17,723 bases of DNA from positions 1 to 17,723 of the forward strand of contig JANYAA010000035.1 of NCBI GenBank assembly GCA_025355255.1. Reading direction: 5' to 3'. The notes under the pieces were generated by a model, which had not been told where the DNA came from, made no database searches, and saw only the letters and a program-made list of their open reading frames with translations. This DNA is from Chloroflexota bacterium. GTDB taxonomy: Bacteria; Chloroflexota; Limnocylindria; Limnocylindrales; CSP1-4. Positions 6,190-10,486 of this stretch are shown here, piece by piece; positions within the stretch are counted from its first letter, which is position 1; the number at the start of each line of letters is the position of its first letter. Both the position numbers and the translations under genes were made by a program.

Positions 6190-7020
6190 CTACTCCAGCA
6201 GCATGTCGGGCGACTCGCCAACCGAGGTGAACCCGAGCCGCTCGTATAGCCCGATGGCAGTCGCATTGCCGCTGAAGACACCCAAGTACGCGGAGCCCGG
6301 CGCGCGGACGCCAGCGGCAGCCAGTGCCTGGCGCGTCGTCAGGGCGCCCAGCCCGCGCCCCCGGAACCCGGGCAGCGTCCCGATGTTCGACAGGTAGGTG
6401 AGCCCGTCAAACGTGGTTGCCTTGGCCACCGCGGCCGCCGTCCCATGGACGCGGGCCAGCACCAGAGCGATCCGCGGATCGTCGAGCGTTGCCGCCAGAT
6501 CCGCCGCCAGCTCCGGTGCACGGGCAGCCGTGGCGCCAAAGGCAGCGGCCAGCACGGCGCCCGCATCGGCAACATCGCGGGGACCCGCATCTGATGCGCG
6601 GCGAATGACGCGCAGGCTCACACCTGCGGGGACTTCCTTCTCGGATACGCCGACCGCCGCCGGGTCAGCCAGCACCATGACGTGGCCACCGCCCACATCG
6701 GCAAACCCGTTGGCCTGGAGACGCATTGAGAGGTCAGCTGGGCGTCCATGAGCGGGCGACGGCCAGACATGCGGGGTGCGACCAAGGATGGCGAACAGCG
6801 TCATGACCTCAGTGAGCCGCCGGTCGAATGCCGCGGGGTCGTCCGGCCAGCGGACGGCCGCGAGCCGGTTCCAGAACGGGTCCGCATCGATGGGGTCGTG
6901 CAGCAGCACGGCGTCGCCAAGATCGCGCATCTGGCGGGCGGGGATGGCGTGCGAGGCGGTCTCGTGCCGTTCGACGGCGGTCATCGCCGCGGCGTCAAGC
7001 CCGAGCCGCCGAAGGCTCAA
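6190..7020 (-). CDS. GNAT family N-acetyltransferase, two-part protein
   Basis: 276-residue protein with a C-terminal GNAT domain (about 135-275). Motif A is LSNIGTLPGFRGRGLGALTT, with the acetyl-CoA loop R220-G-R-G-L-G225. Motif B includes SGNATAIGLYERLGF and a final VGESPDMLLE strand. The N-terminal part (about 25-120), with DPIDADPFWNRLAAVRWPDD, HVWPSP and GFADVGGGHVMVL, looks like a degenerate first GNAT half, as in tandem-GNAT proteins. The substrate is unknown. The TTG at 7018-7020 overlaps the TGA of the methyltransferase gene (TTGA), which favours a coupled start. The alternative is an ATG 36 nt downstream at 6982-6984; neither has a strong ribosome-binding site. Confidence 0.85.
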   Translation of the reverse strand: MSLRRLGLDAAAMTAVERHETASHAIPARQMRDLGDAVLLHDPIDADPFWNRLAAVRWPDDPAAFDRRLTEVMTLFAILGRTPHVWPSPAHGRPADLSMRLQANGFADVGGGHVMVLADPAAVGVSEKEVPAGVSLRVIRRASDAGPRDVADAGAVLAAAFGATAARAPELAADLAATLDDPRIALVLARVHGTAAAVAKATTFDGLTYLSNIGTLPGFRGRGLGALTTRQALAAAGVRAPGSAYLGVFSGNATAIGLYERLGFTSVGESPDMLLE

Positions 7021-8027
7021 GCGCGACGCACCACGATGGCGCTGGCCCCAGACGGCAGCTCAACGAGTTCCGGGATGGGCAGGCCGGCTTCGGCATACCA
7101 GCCGAGTGCCTCCGTTGACGAGACGAGACGCGTCCCCTGGACCAGCTCGTCCAGCTGGACGCCGGCGATCATCTCCGCGTGGCGGGTTCGCAGCAGGTCG
7201 GGGTCCGTTGGCAGGTACCAGTCCAGCGAAACCAGCCAGCCGCCCGGCTTCACCGCGGCCCAGGCCGACCACAGCGTGTCGGCGGGGTCCGGCAGCTGGT
7301 GCAGCGAGTACTGCAGGTAGACCAGCGTCGCCTCGCCCTGGTGGCCCACGTTGATCATGGAGCCCTGCTCGATGGCGATACGGGCCTGCAGGCCGGCCGC
7401 GGCGACGTTGGCACGAGCTCGCTGCACGGAGTCTGGCTCAAACTCCACGCCGGCCAGCTGGGTCCCGGCAAACCGGCGCGCCATGGCGATCAGCCAGCGG
7501 CCGCCGCCGCAGTGGACGTCGAGGATGCGCGAGCCGGCCCCGAGATCCGCCGCCAGCTGCGGAAAGGACCCGAGGACTTCCTCAAAGAAGACGGCGACAT
7601 CCTGGATGGTCAGGCGCTCGATTGAGACGCGGTACCGGTCCGGACGCGACCGCAACGGCGTGCCGCTGCGGAAGACGTCGGCGAGGGCGTGGTAGTCCAG
7701 GCTGCCGATGGACGCGTGCAGGAACTGCCCGCCGAGATACTCCGGGCGGTTGGGGTCAAGCAGGATCCGTGCGAGCTCTGCCGGCAGGTGGATCCGGTCA
7801 TCCACGATATCCACCAGCGCGTGCGCGTCCGCGCCCCAGGCCCAGCGCGACGCCAGCTCGGGCTGGATCGCGGCGGTTGTCGCAAGCTCCCCTGTGGTCA
7901 GGCCCTCTTCACCGGCGGCGCGGAGCTGCTCGAACAGGCCGAGCTCTAGACCGGCGTACACATACCAGGTCTTGTAGAAGCCGCCGAGGCTGGCCACCAG
8001 TTCGTCGAAGCGGTCGTCGAGGCGCAT
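7017..8027 (-). CDS. SAM-dependent methyltransferase with N-terminal winged-helix-like domain
   Basis: 336-residue class I methyltransferase. The N-terminal part (about 10-85: GFYKTWYVYAGLELGLFEQL, LTTGELATTA, HALVDIVDDRIHL) resembles the dimerisation/winged-helix region of O-methyltransferase family 2. The Rossmann domain begins with motif I, ILDVHCGGGRWLIAMA (168-183). It continues with an acidic strand end (AGVEFEPDSVQRARANV), VYLQYSLHQLPDP (motif IV region) and LKPGGxL-like VKPGGWLVSLDW. The acceptor is unknown. The start is the ATG at 8025-8027; the frame stays open further upstream, but the divergent sigma gene occupies that DNA. A CACAAT hexamer stands 6 nt before the ATG, suggesting a leaderless message that would serve the whole five-gene run to 3752. 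Confidence 0.88.
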   Translation of the reverse strand: MRLDDRFDELVASLGGFYKTWYVYAGLELGLFEQLRAAGEEGLTTGELATTAAIQPELASRWAWGADAHALVDIVDDRIHLPAELARILLDPNRPEYLGGQFLHASIGSLDYHALADVFRSGTPLRSRPDRYRVSIERLTIQDVAVFFEEVLGSFPQLAADLGAGSRILDVHCGGGRWLIAMARRFAGTQLAGVEFEPDSVQRARANVAAAGLQARIAIEQGSMINVGHQGEATLVYLQYSLHQLPDPADTLWSAWAAVKPGGWLVSLDWYLPTDPDLLRTRHAEMIAGVQLDELVQGTRLVSSTEALGWYAEAGLPIPELVELPSGASAIVVRRA

Positions 8028-8055: not shown

Positions 8056-8114
8056 GCATCGCCCGGCGGCCCATTGGGGCGACCCGCAAGGCGATGCAAC
8101 CGGGTCGCCGCCGG
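8056..8114. repeat. Three interleaved inverted repeats upstream of the sigma factor gene
   Basis: Arm A GCATCGCC (8056-8063) is the exact complement of A' (8090-8097). Arm B GGCGACCCG (8078-8086) matches B' (8101-8109) over nine bases. Arm C CCGGCGGC (8063-8070) matches C' (8107-8114). The order A-B-A'-B' means A/A' and B/B' cross, so as RNA they give either a pseudoknot or mutually exclusive hairpins. C/C' would extend the B hairpin; its C' arm shares three bases with B'. A TAGCAT hexamer at 8054-8059 could be a plus-strand -10 and would then put arm A in the promoter instead of the transcript, making the repeats operator DNA. The sigma ATG lies 17 bp beyond C'. I match it to no known riboswitch class. 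Confidence 0.6.
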
Positions 8115-8131
8115 ACGTGTTGTAGGTGGTG

Positions 8132-8710
8132 ATGGACGACACAGCCCTGGCGAACCTCTTGGCTGACGACCTTGACGCTGCGTTCGAAGTGCTCGTCCGC
8201 GCCCACGTGGATCGCTGCCACGCGATTGCCCTGCGCGTGCTGGGCAGCCACCACGATGCCGAGGAGGTGGCGCAGGACGCGCTCGTCCGGGCGTACCGCG
8301 CGCTTGGCGCGTACCCGCCCGAACGGATCCGCGAGCTGCGTCTGCGCCCGTGGCTGGCAACCATCGTTGTGAACCTGTGCCGGAACCGGCGTCGCCGGAC
8401 TATCCCGCCCTCAACACCGCTGGCTGCACTGGTGGAGGCGGGGGCAGAACCGCGCGCCGCCGCCGCAGGCAGCCCCGACGCCACCGCTCAACGCCACGAC
8501 GCGCGCCACCGTCTCGGCGCGCTGCTCGCCGCTCTCCCCGAGCGGTATCGGGTCCCGGTAGTCCTGCGCCACGTCGACGACCTGTCGTATACCGAACTCG
8601 CCCTGGTCCTCGGCCGCCCCGAGGGGACGCTGAAGGCCCAAGTCCACCGGGGGCTCGCGATGCTGCGGGCTGCCGCGCAAGCCGAGGGTCTGGAGGAGCT
8701 GATCGCATGA
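8132..8710 (+). CDS. ECF-type sigma-70 family RNA polymerase sigma factor
   Basis: 192-residue sigma factor with only regions 2 and 4, the ECF layout. Region 2 spans about 15-85, with HDAEEVAQDALVRAYRALGAY (core polymerase and -10 binding) and RPWLATIVVNLCRNRRRR. A linker rich in Ala and Pro (about 90-120) follows. Region 4 spans about 125-185: LPERYRVPVVLRHVDDLSYTELA, then the -35-binding helix-turn-helix VLGRPEGTLKAQVHRGLAMLR. The ATG at 8132-8134 is preceded by two in-frame GTG codons (8126, 8129) and AGGTGG, so the exact start may shift by two residues. Its TGA overlaps the ATG of the next gene (ATGA). No anti-sigma factor follows; the coupled partner is a DNA alkyltransferase, which suggests a link to alkylation damage. 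Confidence 0.93.
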   Translation: MDDTALANLLADDLDAAFEVLVRAHVDRCHAIALRVLGSHHDAEEVAQDALVRAYRALGAYPPERIRELRLRPWLATIVVNLCRNRRRRTIPPSTPLAALVEAGAEPRAAAAGSPDATAQRHDARHRLGALLAALPERYRVPVVLRHVDDLSYTELALVLGRPEGTLKAQVHRGLAMLRAAAQAEGLEELIA

Positions 8711-9489
8711 ATGAGCGCCTGGCGCTCACATCCCTGGCGACCCCGGCGCCAGCGCATCTGGCGGACGACATCCTGGTCGAGGTTGGCCTCGCCGACCGCA
8801 TGGCCCCGCTTGAGACCGCGATCGGCACGCTCTGGGTGGCCTGGAACGGGTGCGGCGTGGCGGCTGTGGACCTGGCCGAGGACGGGCCTGCTGCGGCCGT
8901 GCGTCATACGGCAACCTGCGGCCGGCGCACGCTCGTGGCGGATGTCCTGCCCGCGGCGCTTGCGCGCCCGATCAGACGCCGTCTGGCGGGTGACCGTTCA
9001 GCGCGGATCCCGCTTGACCTCCGCGGCCACACGGACTTCGAGCTGGCGGTCTGGGCGAAGGCACTCGAAATCCCGTTTGGCGAAGTGCGCCCGTACGGTT
9101 GGATCGCAGCGGAGATCGGGCGGCCAAAGGCGGTCCGCGCGGTGGGGACGGCGCTGGGGCATAACCCGGTGCCGCTGGTGGTCCCCTGCCATCGGGTGGT
9201 CCGAACCGACGGCACCATTGGGCAGTACTCGCTCGGCGGCCCTGGCAACAAGCGCGCGATCCTCGTTGCTGAAGGGCTGGACCCAGACGGGCTGGAGTCC
9301 GCGGCGCGCCGGGGCGAGCGGCTGATCGGCTCGGACACCACGCGCATCGTCTGCTGGCCCACCTGTCGCCACGCTCGGCGTGTATCGGGCGCACACCGGG
9401 TACCGTTCCGTTCGCTGCGGGACGCCCAAACTCGCGGTTACCGCGCCTGCAGGGTCTGCAGGCCGTCCGCCGTGGAGTTGGCGGCCTGA
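8707..9489 (+). CDS. O6-alkylguanine-DNA alkyltransferase fused to a C-terminal Ada-type zinc-binding domain
   Basis: 260-residue repair protein. Residues about 35-195 form an Ogt/AdaB-type alkyltransferase that moves the alkyl group from O6-alkylguanine to its own cysteine. Seen: GEVRPYGWIAAEIGRPKAVRAVG (DNA-binding helices with the Arg finger at 144), NPVPLVVPCHRVV with acceptor Cys161, and the GGPGNKRAIL end. Residues about 205-254 match the Ada N-terminal methyl-phosphotriester domain: SDTTRIVCWPTC, then TRGYRACRVCRP. The four zinc cysteines are Cys216, Cys220, Cys248 and Cys251; Cys216 matches the methyl-accepting Cys38 of E. coli Ada. In Ada this domain is N-terminal and followed by an AraC-type helix-turn-helix; here the order is reversed and that helix-turn-helix is missing. 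The first ~33 residues are extra. The start overlaps the sigma factor stop (ATGA). Confidence 0.92.
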   Translation: MNERLALTSLATPAPAHLADDILVEVGLADRMAPLETAIGTLWVAWNGCGVAAVDLAEDGPAAAVRHTATCGRRTLVADVLPAALARPIRRRLAGDRSARIPLDLRGHTDFELAVWAKALEIPFGEVRPYGWIAAEIGRPKAVRAVGTALGHNPVPLVVPCHRVVRTDGTIGQYSLGGPGNKRAILVAEGLDPDGLESAARRGERLIGSDTTRIVCWPTCRHARRVSGAHRVPFRSLRDAQTRGYRACRVCRPSAVELAA

Positions 9490-9529: not shown

Positions 9530-10486
9530 GTGACCAGCCAACCGAGCGCGCGCACCGCCAGCCCGCTCGCCATCTGGGCGGGCATCCTGGTGCTGTACCT
9601 CGTCTGGGGCTCCACCTATCTGGCGATCCGCGTTGCGGTGGCGACCATCCCGGCGATCCTGATGAGCGCCATGCGCTTCATGCCGGCGGGCGTGATCCTC
9701 ACCCTCGCCATGGTCGGGAGCCTGCGCGGGCGTCTCGTCCGGCCATCGCTCCGCGAGGTCCGAGACGCGTCCATCGTCGGGTTCTGCCTCATCGGCGGCG
9801 GCATGGGCCTGGTTGCCTGGTCGGAGCAGACCGTGTCATCCGGAATCGCCGCCCTCTTCGTGGGTCTTATGCCGATGTGGGTTGGCGTGCTCAACCGGAT
9901 CGCCTTCGGGGCGCGGATGCCGCGCCGTGCGGCAGCGGGCACGCTCATCGGCCTTGGCGGCGTCGCGCTGCTGGCGGGGCCCTCAATCGCGGCTGGCGGC
10001 AGGGAGGTTCCGGGGCTGCTAGCACTTCTGGTCTCGCCGATGTGCTGGGCCACGGGCTCGCTCTACTCCGCCAAGCGCGCCGTCCAGCCCAAGCCCGCGC
10101 TCCTCGCGACGGGGATCCAGATGCTGGCCGGCGGCACGCTGCTGCTGGCTGTGGCGGCGGTGACAGGGCAGGTGGCAGCATTCAACCCGGCGTCAGTGGC
10201 GCCCGAGGGCTGGCTGGGTCTGGGCTACCTGATCGGCGTCGGCAGCCTCATTGGCTACGTGACGTTTGCCTGGCTGGTAGGCGTGGCCCCGCTGGCGCAC
10301 GTGACGACGTACGCCTACGTCAATCCTGTCGTGGCGGTCGCGCTTGGCGCGCTGATCCTGGGTGAACCGCTGGAGCCTCGAACGCTGGCCGCGGCTGCCG
10401 TCATCGTGTTGGGCGTGATGCTCATCGTGTCCACCACGGGCCGCGCCCCGAGCCCAGCGCGCGAAGCGGTGGTTGCGCCGAACTGA
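9530..10486 (+). CDS. EamA/DMT family transporter (YedA-like)
   Basis: 318-residue inner-membrane protein of the drug/metabolite transporter superfamily, with two EamA repeats and about ten hydrophobic helices. The first repeat carries LVWGSTYLAIRVA (about 24-36) and MRFMPAGVI. The second carries MCWATGSLYSAKRA and the closing TYAYVNPVVAVALGALILGEPL, all typical of YedA/RhaT-like exporters. The substrate is unknown. The frame is open upstream to 9380, inside the alkyltransferase gene. I chose the GTG at 9530-9532 because GAGGA lies about 10 nt before it and the protein then begins shortly before the first helix. It begins 40 bp after the alkyltransferase stop in the same direction and could belong to the same operon. 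Its stop is one base from the stop of the convergent aldolase gene, leaving no room for a terminator. Confidence 0.88.
   Translation: MTSQPSARTASPLAIWAGILVLYLVWGSTYLAIRVAVATIPAILMSAMRFMPAGVILTLAMVGSLRGRLVRPSLREVRDASIVGFCLIGGGMGLVAWSEQTVSSGIAALFVGLMPMWVGVLNRIAFGARMPRRAAAGTLIGLGGVALLAGPSIAAGGREVPGLLALLVSPMCWATGSLYSAKRAVQPKPALLATGIQMLAGGTLLLAVAAVTGQVAAFNPASVAPEGWLGLGYLIGVGSLIGYVTFAWLVGVAPLAHVTTYAYVNPVVAVALGALILGEPLEPRTLAAAAVIVLGVMLIVSTTGRAPSPAREAVVAPN

Follow-up and report, generated by a model that had tools for sequence, protein, structure and literature searches.

A putative alkylation-response switch made of an ECF sigma factor and a suicide alkyltransferase with an Ada-type sensor domain

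The Ada response of E. coli, with AlkA, AlkB and AidB, centres on one protein that carries two suicide methyl acceptors: an N-terminal Cys4 domain, which is followed by an AraC-type helix-turn-helix, and an alkyltransferase domain with the motif PCHRV. RsrA is a soluble zinc-binding anti-sigma factor of SigR, and a further cytoplasmic sensor paired with an ECF factor is ChrR, the partner of RpoE. Also close is the sigma factor group ECF122 of Casas-Pastor et al. (2021), for which a 2022 review (PMC8999054) gives a 6-O-methylguanine DNA methyltransferase as conserved neighbour. In its account of the group the review places ECF122 among the ECFs without a cognate anti-sigma factor and calls the mechanism uncharacterised; that account mentions neither an Ada domain nor a fusion to an anti-sigma domain. 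The pairing of an ECF gene with an alkyltransferase gene is itself already catalogued there, and so is not new. A full-text literature search, judged mostly by title, led to no recognised description of an alkyltransferase as an anti-sigma factor.

The locus considered here lies on the forward strand of a window of 17,723 nucleotides, the whole stretch of DNA analysed (contig JANYAA010000035.1 of the Chloroflexota bacterium assembly GCA_025355255.1). Its sigma factor, like ECF122 as the review (PMC8999054) presents it, has a conserved methyltransferase neighbour, and is called ECF122-like by its neighbour gene rather than by a group profile. As in Ada, a Cys4 domain with an equivalent of Cys38 and a PCHRV alkyltransferase (AGT) domain are joined in one protein, the operon is predicted to be self-induced, and some relatives have AlkA encoded within the operon or downstream of the promoter. 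In contrast to Ada, the Cys4 domain is C-terminal (residues 203-253), the AraC-type helix-turn-helix is absent, and it is the ECF sigma factor that appears to supply promoter recognition. The protein's relatives contain the same kind of zinc finger as ChrR, but unlike the soluble zinc anti-sigma factors of the ChrR type, the window sensor is a once-reacting DNA-repair enzyme and lacks a zinc finger. Sequence comparison and structure models together make it likely that the pair forms an alkylation-response switch, with the suicide AGT-Ada protein both inhibiting the sigma factor and sensing damage; the alkyltransferase would then probably be the anti-sigma factor.

The paired genes and their promoter

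The sigma factor gene (8132..8710, forward strand) encodes 192 amino acids in which regions 2 and 4 of sigma-70 are the only ones present (PF04542, Sigma70_r2, 54.9 bits; PF08281, Sigma70_r4_2, 52.4 bits), as expected of an ECF (group IV) factor of about 190 amino acids, and it scores 80.1 bits against TIGR02937 (sigma70-ECF; cut-off 42.9). Its TGA stop codon (8708-8710) and the ATG of the alkyltransferase gene (8707-8709) share the tetranucleotide ATGA at 8707..8710, forward strand, as had been noticed in the sequence-only reading. A Shine-Dalgarno-like GGAGGAG (8692..8698, forward strand) is found 8 nt upstream of the alkyltransferase start codon, in the 3′-terminal part of the sigma gene. 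The 4-nt overlap recurs in all 35 loci, window counted, where both genes were found (ATGA in 34 and GTGA in one, using the alkyltransferase start codon closest to the sigma stop), and would couple translation of the two genes. On the minus strand at 7017-8027 there is a divergent gene for a SAM-dependent methyltransferase, assigned by Pfam, and the intergenic region is common to it and to the sigma promoter.

That promoter, a predicted ECF-type TGCAAC-N15-CGTGTT, occupies 8095..8121 of the forward strand (-35 at 8095-8100, -10 at 8116-8121) and ends 10 nt before the sigma start codon, so close that the sigma message would be nearly leaderless. A score of at least 10/12 is reached in 30 of 33 close loci (window counted), always 9-11 nt before the start, and in 18 of 6600 dinucleotide shuffles, none of them at that position, the consensus having been derived from the same loci on which it was scored. 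In the whole of the window's own genome the strict pattern has a single match, the window site; the reversed control has none. HR23, Rubrobacter and Nonomuraea also have promoters of at least 10/12 in front of the pair, as do 16 of 18 Actinomycetota loci, often with TGAAAC. Of the 81 AGT-Ada pairs placed in the sigma tree, 60 attain this score; among the 21 below it are family f21 and a deep clade of seven. Through this conserved, predicted self-promoter the sigma factor would transcribe its own operon.

The second gene (8707..9489, forward strand) encodes the 260 amino acid AGT-Ada protein, the proposed alkylation-sensing anti-sigma factor. Residues 110-190 match PF01035 (101.5 bits) and include the PCHRV active site (residues 160-164, 9184..9198, forward strand) with acceptor Cys161 at 9187-9189. 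The C-terminal Ada-type Cys4 domain (9313..9465, forward strand) matches Ada_Zn_binding, PF02805, at 31.5 bits (cut-off 23), and its Cys216 (9352-9354), 220, 248 and 251 align with Ada Cys38, 42, 69 and 72 in PDB entries 1adn, 1wpk and 1zgw (E 0.004-0.007). Pfam lists no helix-turn-helix family for the protein at E ≤0.1. The intact PCHRV motif, the displaced Ada sensor and the missing AraC-type helix-turn-helix, all described from the letters of the sequence beforehand, thus stand up to profile and alignment searches.

Cys161 and the four cysteines of the Ada domain are invariant across 91 aligned sequences, the window's among them. In a separate set of 35 loci, in which the L036 sequence is cut off, Tyr replaces Cys248 in L031 and the Ada domain of L034 is disrupted past Cys220. 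The AlphaFold2 model of the window protein has a mean pLDDT of 94.2; its top Foldseek match is 1sfe, the C-domain of Ada, and 51 columns align at 1.8 Å with 1u8b, the methylated form of N-Ada (E 0.034). Judged by its domains, conserved cysteines and these two structural matches, the protein appears competent for both methyl transfers. Loss of both arginines that read the A box cannot be claimed: HMMER aligns Ada Arg45 with Arg224, and only Arg71 is replaced (Val250).

Conservation of the pair and its neighbouring genes

The nearest relatives of the window are Chloroflexota genomes, and two proteins that match at 76% identity carry the name Candidatus Limnocylindrales. In a scan of species genomes a sigma homologue is directly upstream of the AGT gene in 34 of 41 loci. 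Five of the seven others (L029, L032, L037, L040 and L041) are matches that start no more than 27 nt from the end of a sequence, and the remaining two, L039 and L042, are less similar; a second AGT gene in L040 does follow an ECF gene. When 301 Chloroflexota genomes were searched, each of the 30 loci returned had the sigma gene, the 30 including the window and some repeats from the 41-locus scan.

After deduplication there are 96 AGTs with a C-terminal Ada domain, 93 of which have at least 400 nt of upstream sequence. An ECF gene precedes 82 of these 93 unique genes, or is fused in the case of Streptomyces, in a set that consists of best matches and is no random draw. The 11 without an ECF gene upstream comprise four genes of family f41, two in-operon second copies and five others. 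The f41 genes (L076, L085, L087 and L088) have a D-isomer-dehydrogenase-like gene upstream, judged by eye, and their products have no match to the N-terminal segment profile considered below. In Actinomycetota, the phylum of Lapillicoccus, 21 of 296 genomes have an AGT match at E ≤1e-25; the 18 matches that have an Ada domain all lie behind an ECF gene, and the three that lack the domain do not.

Among 20 genomes of the window's own family, eight have both genes, adjacent in each (AGT-Ada at E ≤1e-90, a close sigma homologue at E ≤6e-49), and 12 have neither, their AGT matches being weaker or absent and their best sigma match 3e-25. This joint presence and absence, 8/8 versus 0/12, has a Fisher p of 8e-6, with kinship ignored and several genomes incomplete. 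Of the two checks put forward in the sequence-only reading, conservation of the pair is found within the family and beyond, and co-occurrence within the family. As Rubrobacter radiotolerans RSPS-4 and Nonomuraea gerenzanensis, named organisms with deposited sequences, carry the pair, direct testing of the system should be possible.

The third gene of the probable operon (9530..10486, forward strand) encodes an EamA/DMT-family transporter (PF00892). Window counted, 26 of 32 close loci have a same-strand EamA match that starts within 200 nt of the AGT stop, and 28 have one within 1.4 kb. With the gene so regularly close behind, the earlier suggestion that the transporter is part of the response is plausible. 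Six loci of other lineages have an alkA gene no more than 1 kb downstream and in the same orientation; it adjoins the AGT gene in L053, L055, L131 and L133 and follows a second AGT gene in L089 and L090. These last two loci have an apparent operon of ECF, AGT-Ada, second AGT-Ada and AlkA genes.

In 39 further genomes the strict promoter pattern occurs 55 times, versus 27 for the reversed control. Inspection of 20 promoter regions outside the operon left five that are usable, 15 being located within genes or upstream of reading frames that are of another kind or unclear. The strict promoter precedes a gene for an AlkA-type glycosylase in two genomes (12 and 87 nt ahead of the start codon), one for an EamA-type transporter in two (47 and 80 nt; the identity is Pfam-confirmed in L207 only and the 80-nt case is named from sequence), and one AGT-like gene that has PCQR instead of PCHR. 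Among 30 alkA loci and L209, only G195 (L231) scores better than chance inside the 250 nt next to the AlkA match; in L209 the site is farther upstream. A strict site common to six f22 genomes was discarded, being inside a gene that by eye resembles one for a D-aminoacyl-tRNA deacylase. The alkA gene of the window's own genome lacks the promoter, so the target set of the sigma factor there may be this operon only, and with one mismatch allowed there are 15 sites versus 23 in the reversed control, so that further targets in that genome cannot be claimed.

Anti-sigma-type domains in relatives

In L038, a distant relative from HR23, the N terminus is extended by a stretch containing H-x3-C-x2-C, and a search with it gave the precomputed architecture zf-HC2, AGT and Ada for five of the 120 matches listed. 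Among ten candidates of the zf-HC2-AGT-Ada type, zf-HC2 is above the Pfam cut-off in six, which are known from protein sequence alone, sub-threshold in two and absent in two; P0134 exceeds the cut-off by 0.1 bit. When the zinc-finger part of P0226 is compared with PDB, the anti-sigma factor RsrA is the best match (E 0.0046), followed by DdvA (E 0.077). Among the fetched loci an ECF gene precedes zinc-finger (ZAS) AGT genes in L038, L114, L143, L146 and L307. In L307 zf-HC2 scores 34.7 bits (cut-off 22.2) and the AGT gene overlaps the ECF gene by 13 nt; the match is sub-threshold in L038, L114 and L146, and L143 is unmatched. The Ada domain is present in L038 and absent from the other four. The AGT behind the ECF gene of L146 (1486-2352) has two tandem N-terminal zinc-finger-like repeats, the second being the sub-threshold zf-HC2.

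The model of P0226, a ZAS-AGT-Ada protein (pLDDT 93.5), has helices at 3-14, 20-32 and 34-52, a linker, and a fourth helix at 59-69 before the AGT fold. In its description of the class I anti-sigma domain, PMC7406223 gives three helices and a fourth that binds sigma region 2, and the arrangement in the P0226 model is this topology. Foldseek with the same model returned no anti-sigma structure among the best 50 matches listed.

The three-helix bundle with H-x3-C-x2-C that marks class I (ZAS) domains, present in these relatives, is absent from the window protein. The latter begins instead with a short segment (residues 1-31, 8707..8799, forward strand) that, from profile and model, is proposed to be a remnant of the anti-sigma domain including its fourth helix. 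Its modelled helices 3-9 and 18-25 lie directly before the matching strand of the AGT fold; by models and alignment, helix 18-25 has the place of the fourth helix of P0226. The segment aligns with the one that follows the zinc finger in ZAS-AGT-Ada proteins, and one Leu and one Pro of the aligned motif are kept in at least 90% of 62 sequences. This suggests that the window protein retains only the end of an anti-sigma-type domain. As AlphaFold2 predicts the segment to be well ordered, it may also simply belong to the AGT fold.

A profile of residues 6-31, applied at E ≤0.01, matches 76 of 98 ECF-linked AGT-Ada proteins, none of 12 AGT-Ada proteins without a separate upstream ECF gene (one being the sigma fusion), none of 37 unlinked AGTs without Ada (two of 37 at E ≤1), and five of 24 linked AGTs without Ada, namely L099-L102 and the cut-off L036, a comparison biased towards linked proteins, whose relatives supplied the sequences for the profile. 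The segment tracks ECF linkage rather than the Ada domain.

A plasmid of Streptomyces sp. NBC_00212 (NZ_CP108116.1, locus L159, 2428-3774) encodes a naturally fused protein of 448 amino acids that unites sigma region 4, AGT and Ada; sigma region 2 is unmatched in it. It is annotated 'MGMT family protein', and a second alkyltransferase gene follows. P0240, also with sigma region 4, AGT and Ada, was set aside as evidence, being a single-member cluster, as was P0241, another single-member cluster, apparently garbled by frameshifts.

The sequence-only reading had the alkyltransferase in the place of a conventional anti-sigma factor. In keeping with this, Pfam recognises no anti-sigma factor among 13 proteins of the window; in the whole of the window's own genome the zf-HC2 family has one sub-threshold match, in a 3.1-kb stretch with a different ECF gene. 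The companion proposal that the alkyltransferase is the sensor partner of the sigma factor is favoured by the zinc-finger fusions, the joint presence and absence, the self-promoter and the alkA links, all of them genomic comparisons.

A possible covalent switch and the alternatives

The sequence of events envisaged for the switch is binding, inhibition, and release by methylation. Using the promoter at 8095-8121, the ECF sigma factor would transcribe the operon to which it belongs, and the co-translated AGT-Ada protein would bind it, partly via the N-terminal helical segment, and keep it inactive. On DNA alkylation, O6-methylguanine would be repaired by irreversible transfer of the methyl group to Cys161, and zinc-bound Cys216 would probably accept methyl groups from phosphotriesters or free alkylating agents. 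Spent AGT-Ada may then release the sigma factor, through a change of shape or degradation, and the freed sigma factor would boost production of sigma factor, repair protein and transporter alike (AlkA too in some other genomes) until fresh, unreacted AGT-Ada accumulates and shuts it off again. The narrower proposal, that the suicide repair enzyme is itself the anti-sigma factor, with its unreacted pool as the signal and with the Ada sensor residing in an inhibitor that keeps the last anti-sigma helix, we hold to be only slightly better than an even bet. On that proposal each lesion repaired would remove one inhibitor molecule, so that lesions would be counted stoichiometrically, and the Ada sensor domain would have left a DNA-binding activator and become part of an inhibitor.

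The sign of the regulation could be the opposite, with methylated AGT-Ada activating the sigma factor or its holoenzyme much as methylated E. coli Ada does with RNA polymerase. Methylated Ada is indeed an activator of transcription with a requirement for sigma, as presented in the relevant part of PMC4437013, which also identifies as Ada's B box the GCAA that is found in the -35 element here, and the natural fusion of sigma and AGT-Ada is compatible with activation as well as inhibition. The domain fused in the relatives is of the anti-sigma type, however, and the B box is read by helix-turn-helix residues for which the window protein has no counterpart. Moreover, the Ada-less AGTs of the same sigma clade (L099-L101) keep the same promoter, so GCAAC fits recognition by the sigma factor better than by the Ada domain and its reading as a B box is judged less likely. 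Co-activation is regarded as quite unlikely. It is also unlikely, in our estimate, that AGT-Ada and the transporter are just the regulon of a sigma factor controlled elsewhere or by its own synthesis. Such an arrangement would explain the self-promoter and the operon without any binding, and no second target is shown in the window's own genome. Yet it leaves unexplained the anti-sigma-type domain fused to AGT, the ECF-linked N-terminal segment and the natural sigma fusion, and the neighbourhoods compared for EamA, AlkA, AGT and ECF genes contain no other conserved partner.

A variant whose probability overlaps that of the main switch has Cys161 as the sole trigger and leaves the Ada domain only the repair of phosphotriesters. 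Of 56 unique AGTs in which no Ada domain is detected, 23 have an ECF gene in front (L036 among them is merely cut off), and some of these belong to the same sigma clade; the invariance of the four Ada cysteines in the 91 aligned sequences tells against it, and it is considered possible though doubtful.

The switch in which AGT-Ada inhibits the sigma factor until methylated is supported at the genomic level. If correct, it would provide a mechanism for a catalogued but unexplained type of ECF system, the ECF122-like one, and a second way to build an Ada response without a DNA-binding Ada protein. Control of a sigma factor would in that case be driven by an irreversible and stoichiometric covalent sensor.

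There is also a second ECF-AGT lineage, without Ada but with the start/stop overlap kept (L109, L111, L112, L116-L118, L140 and L040). It is apart from the window lineage in the sigma tree (support 99/93) and could equally be ECF122. Several of its upstream regions, inspected by eye, show CTCACAT...CGTTCTA and not TGCAAC...CGTGTT.
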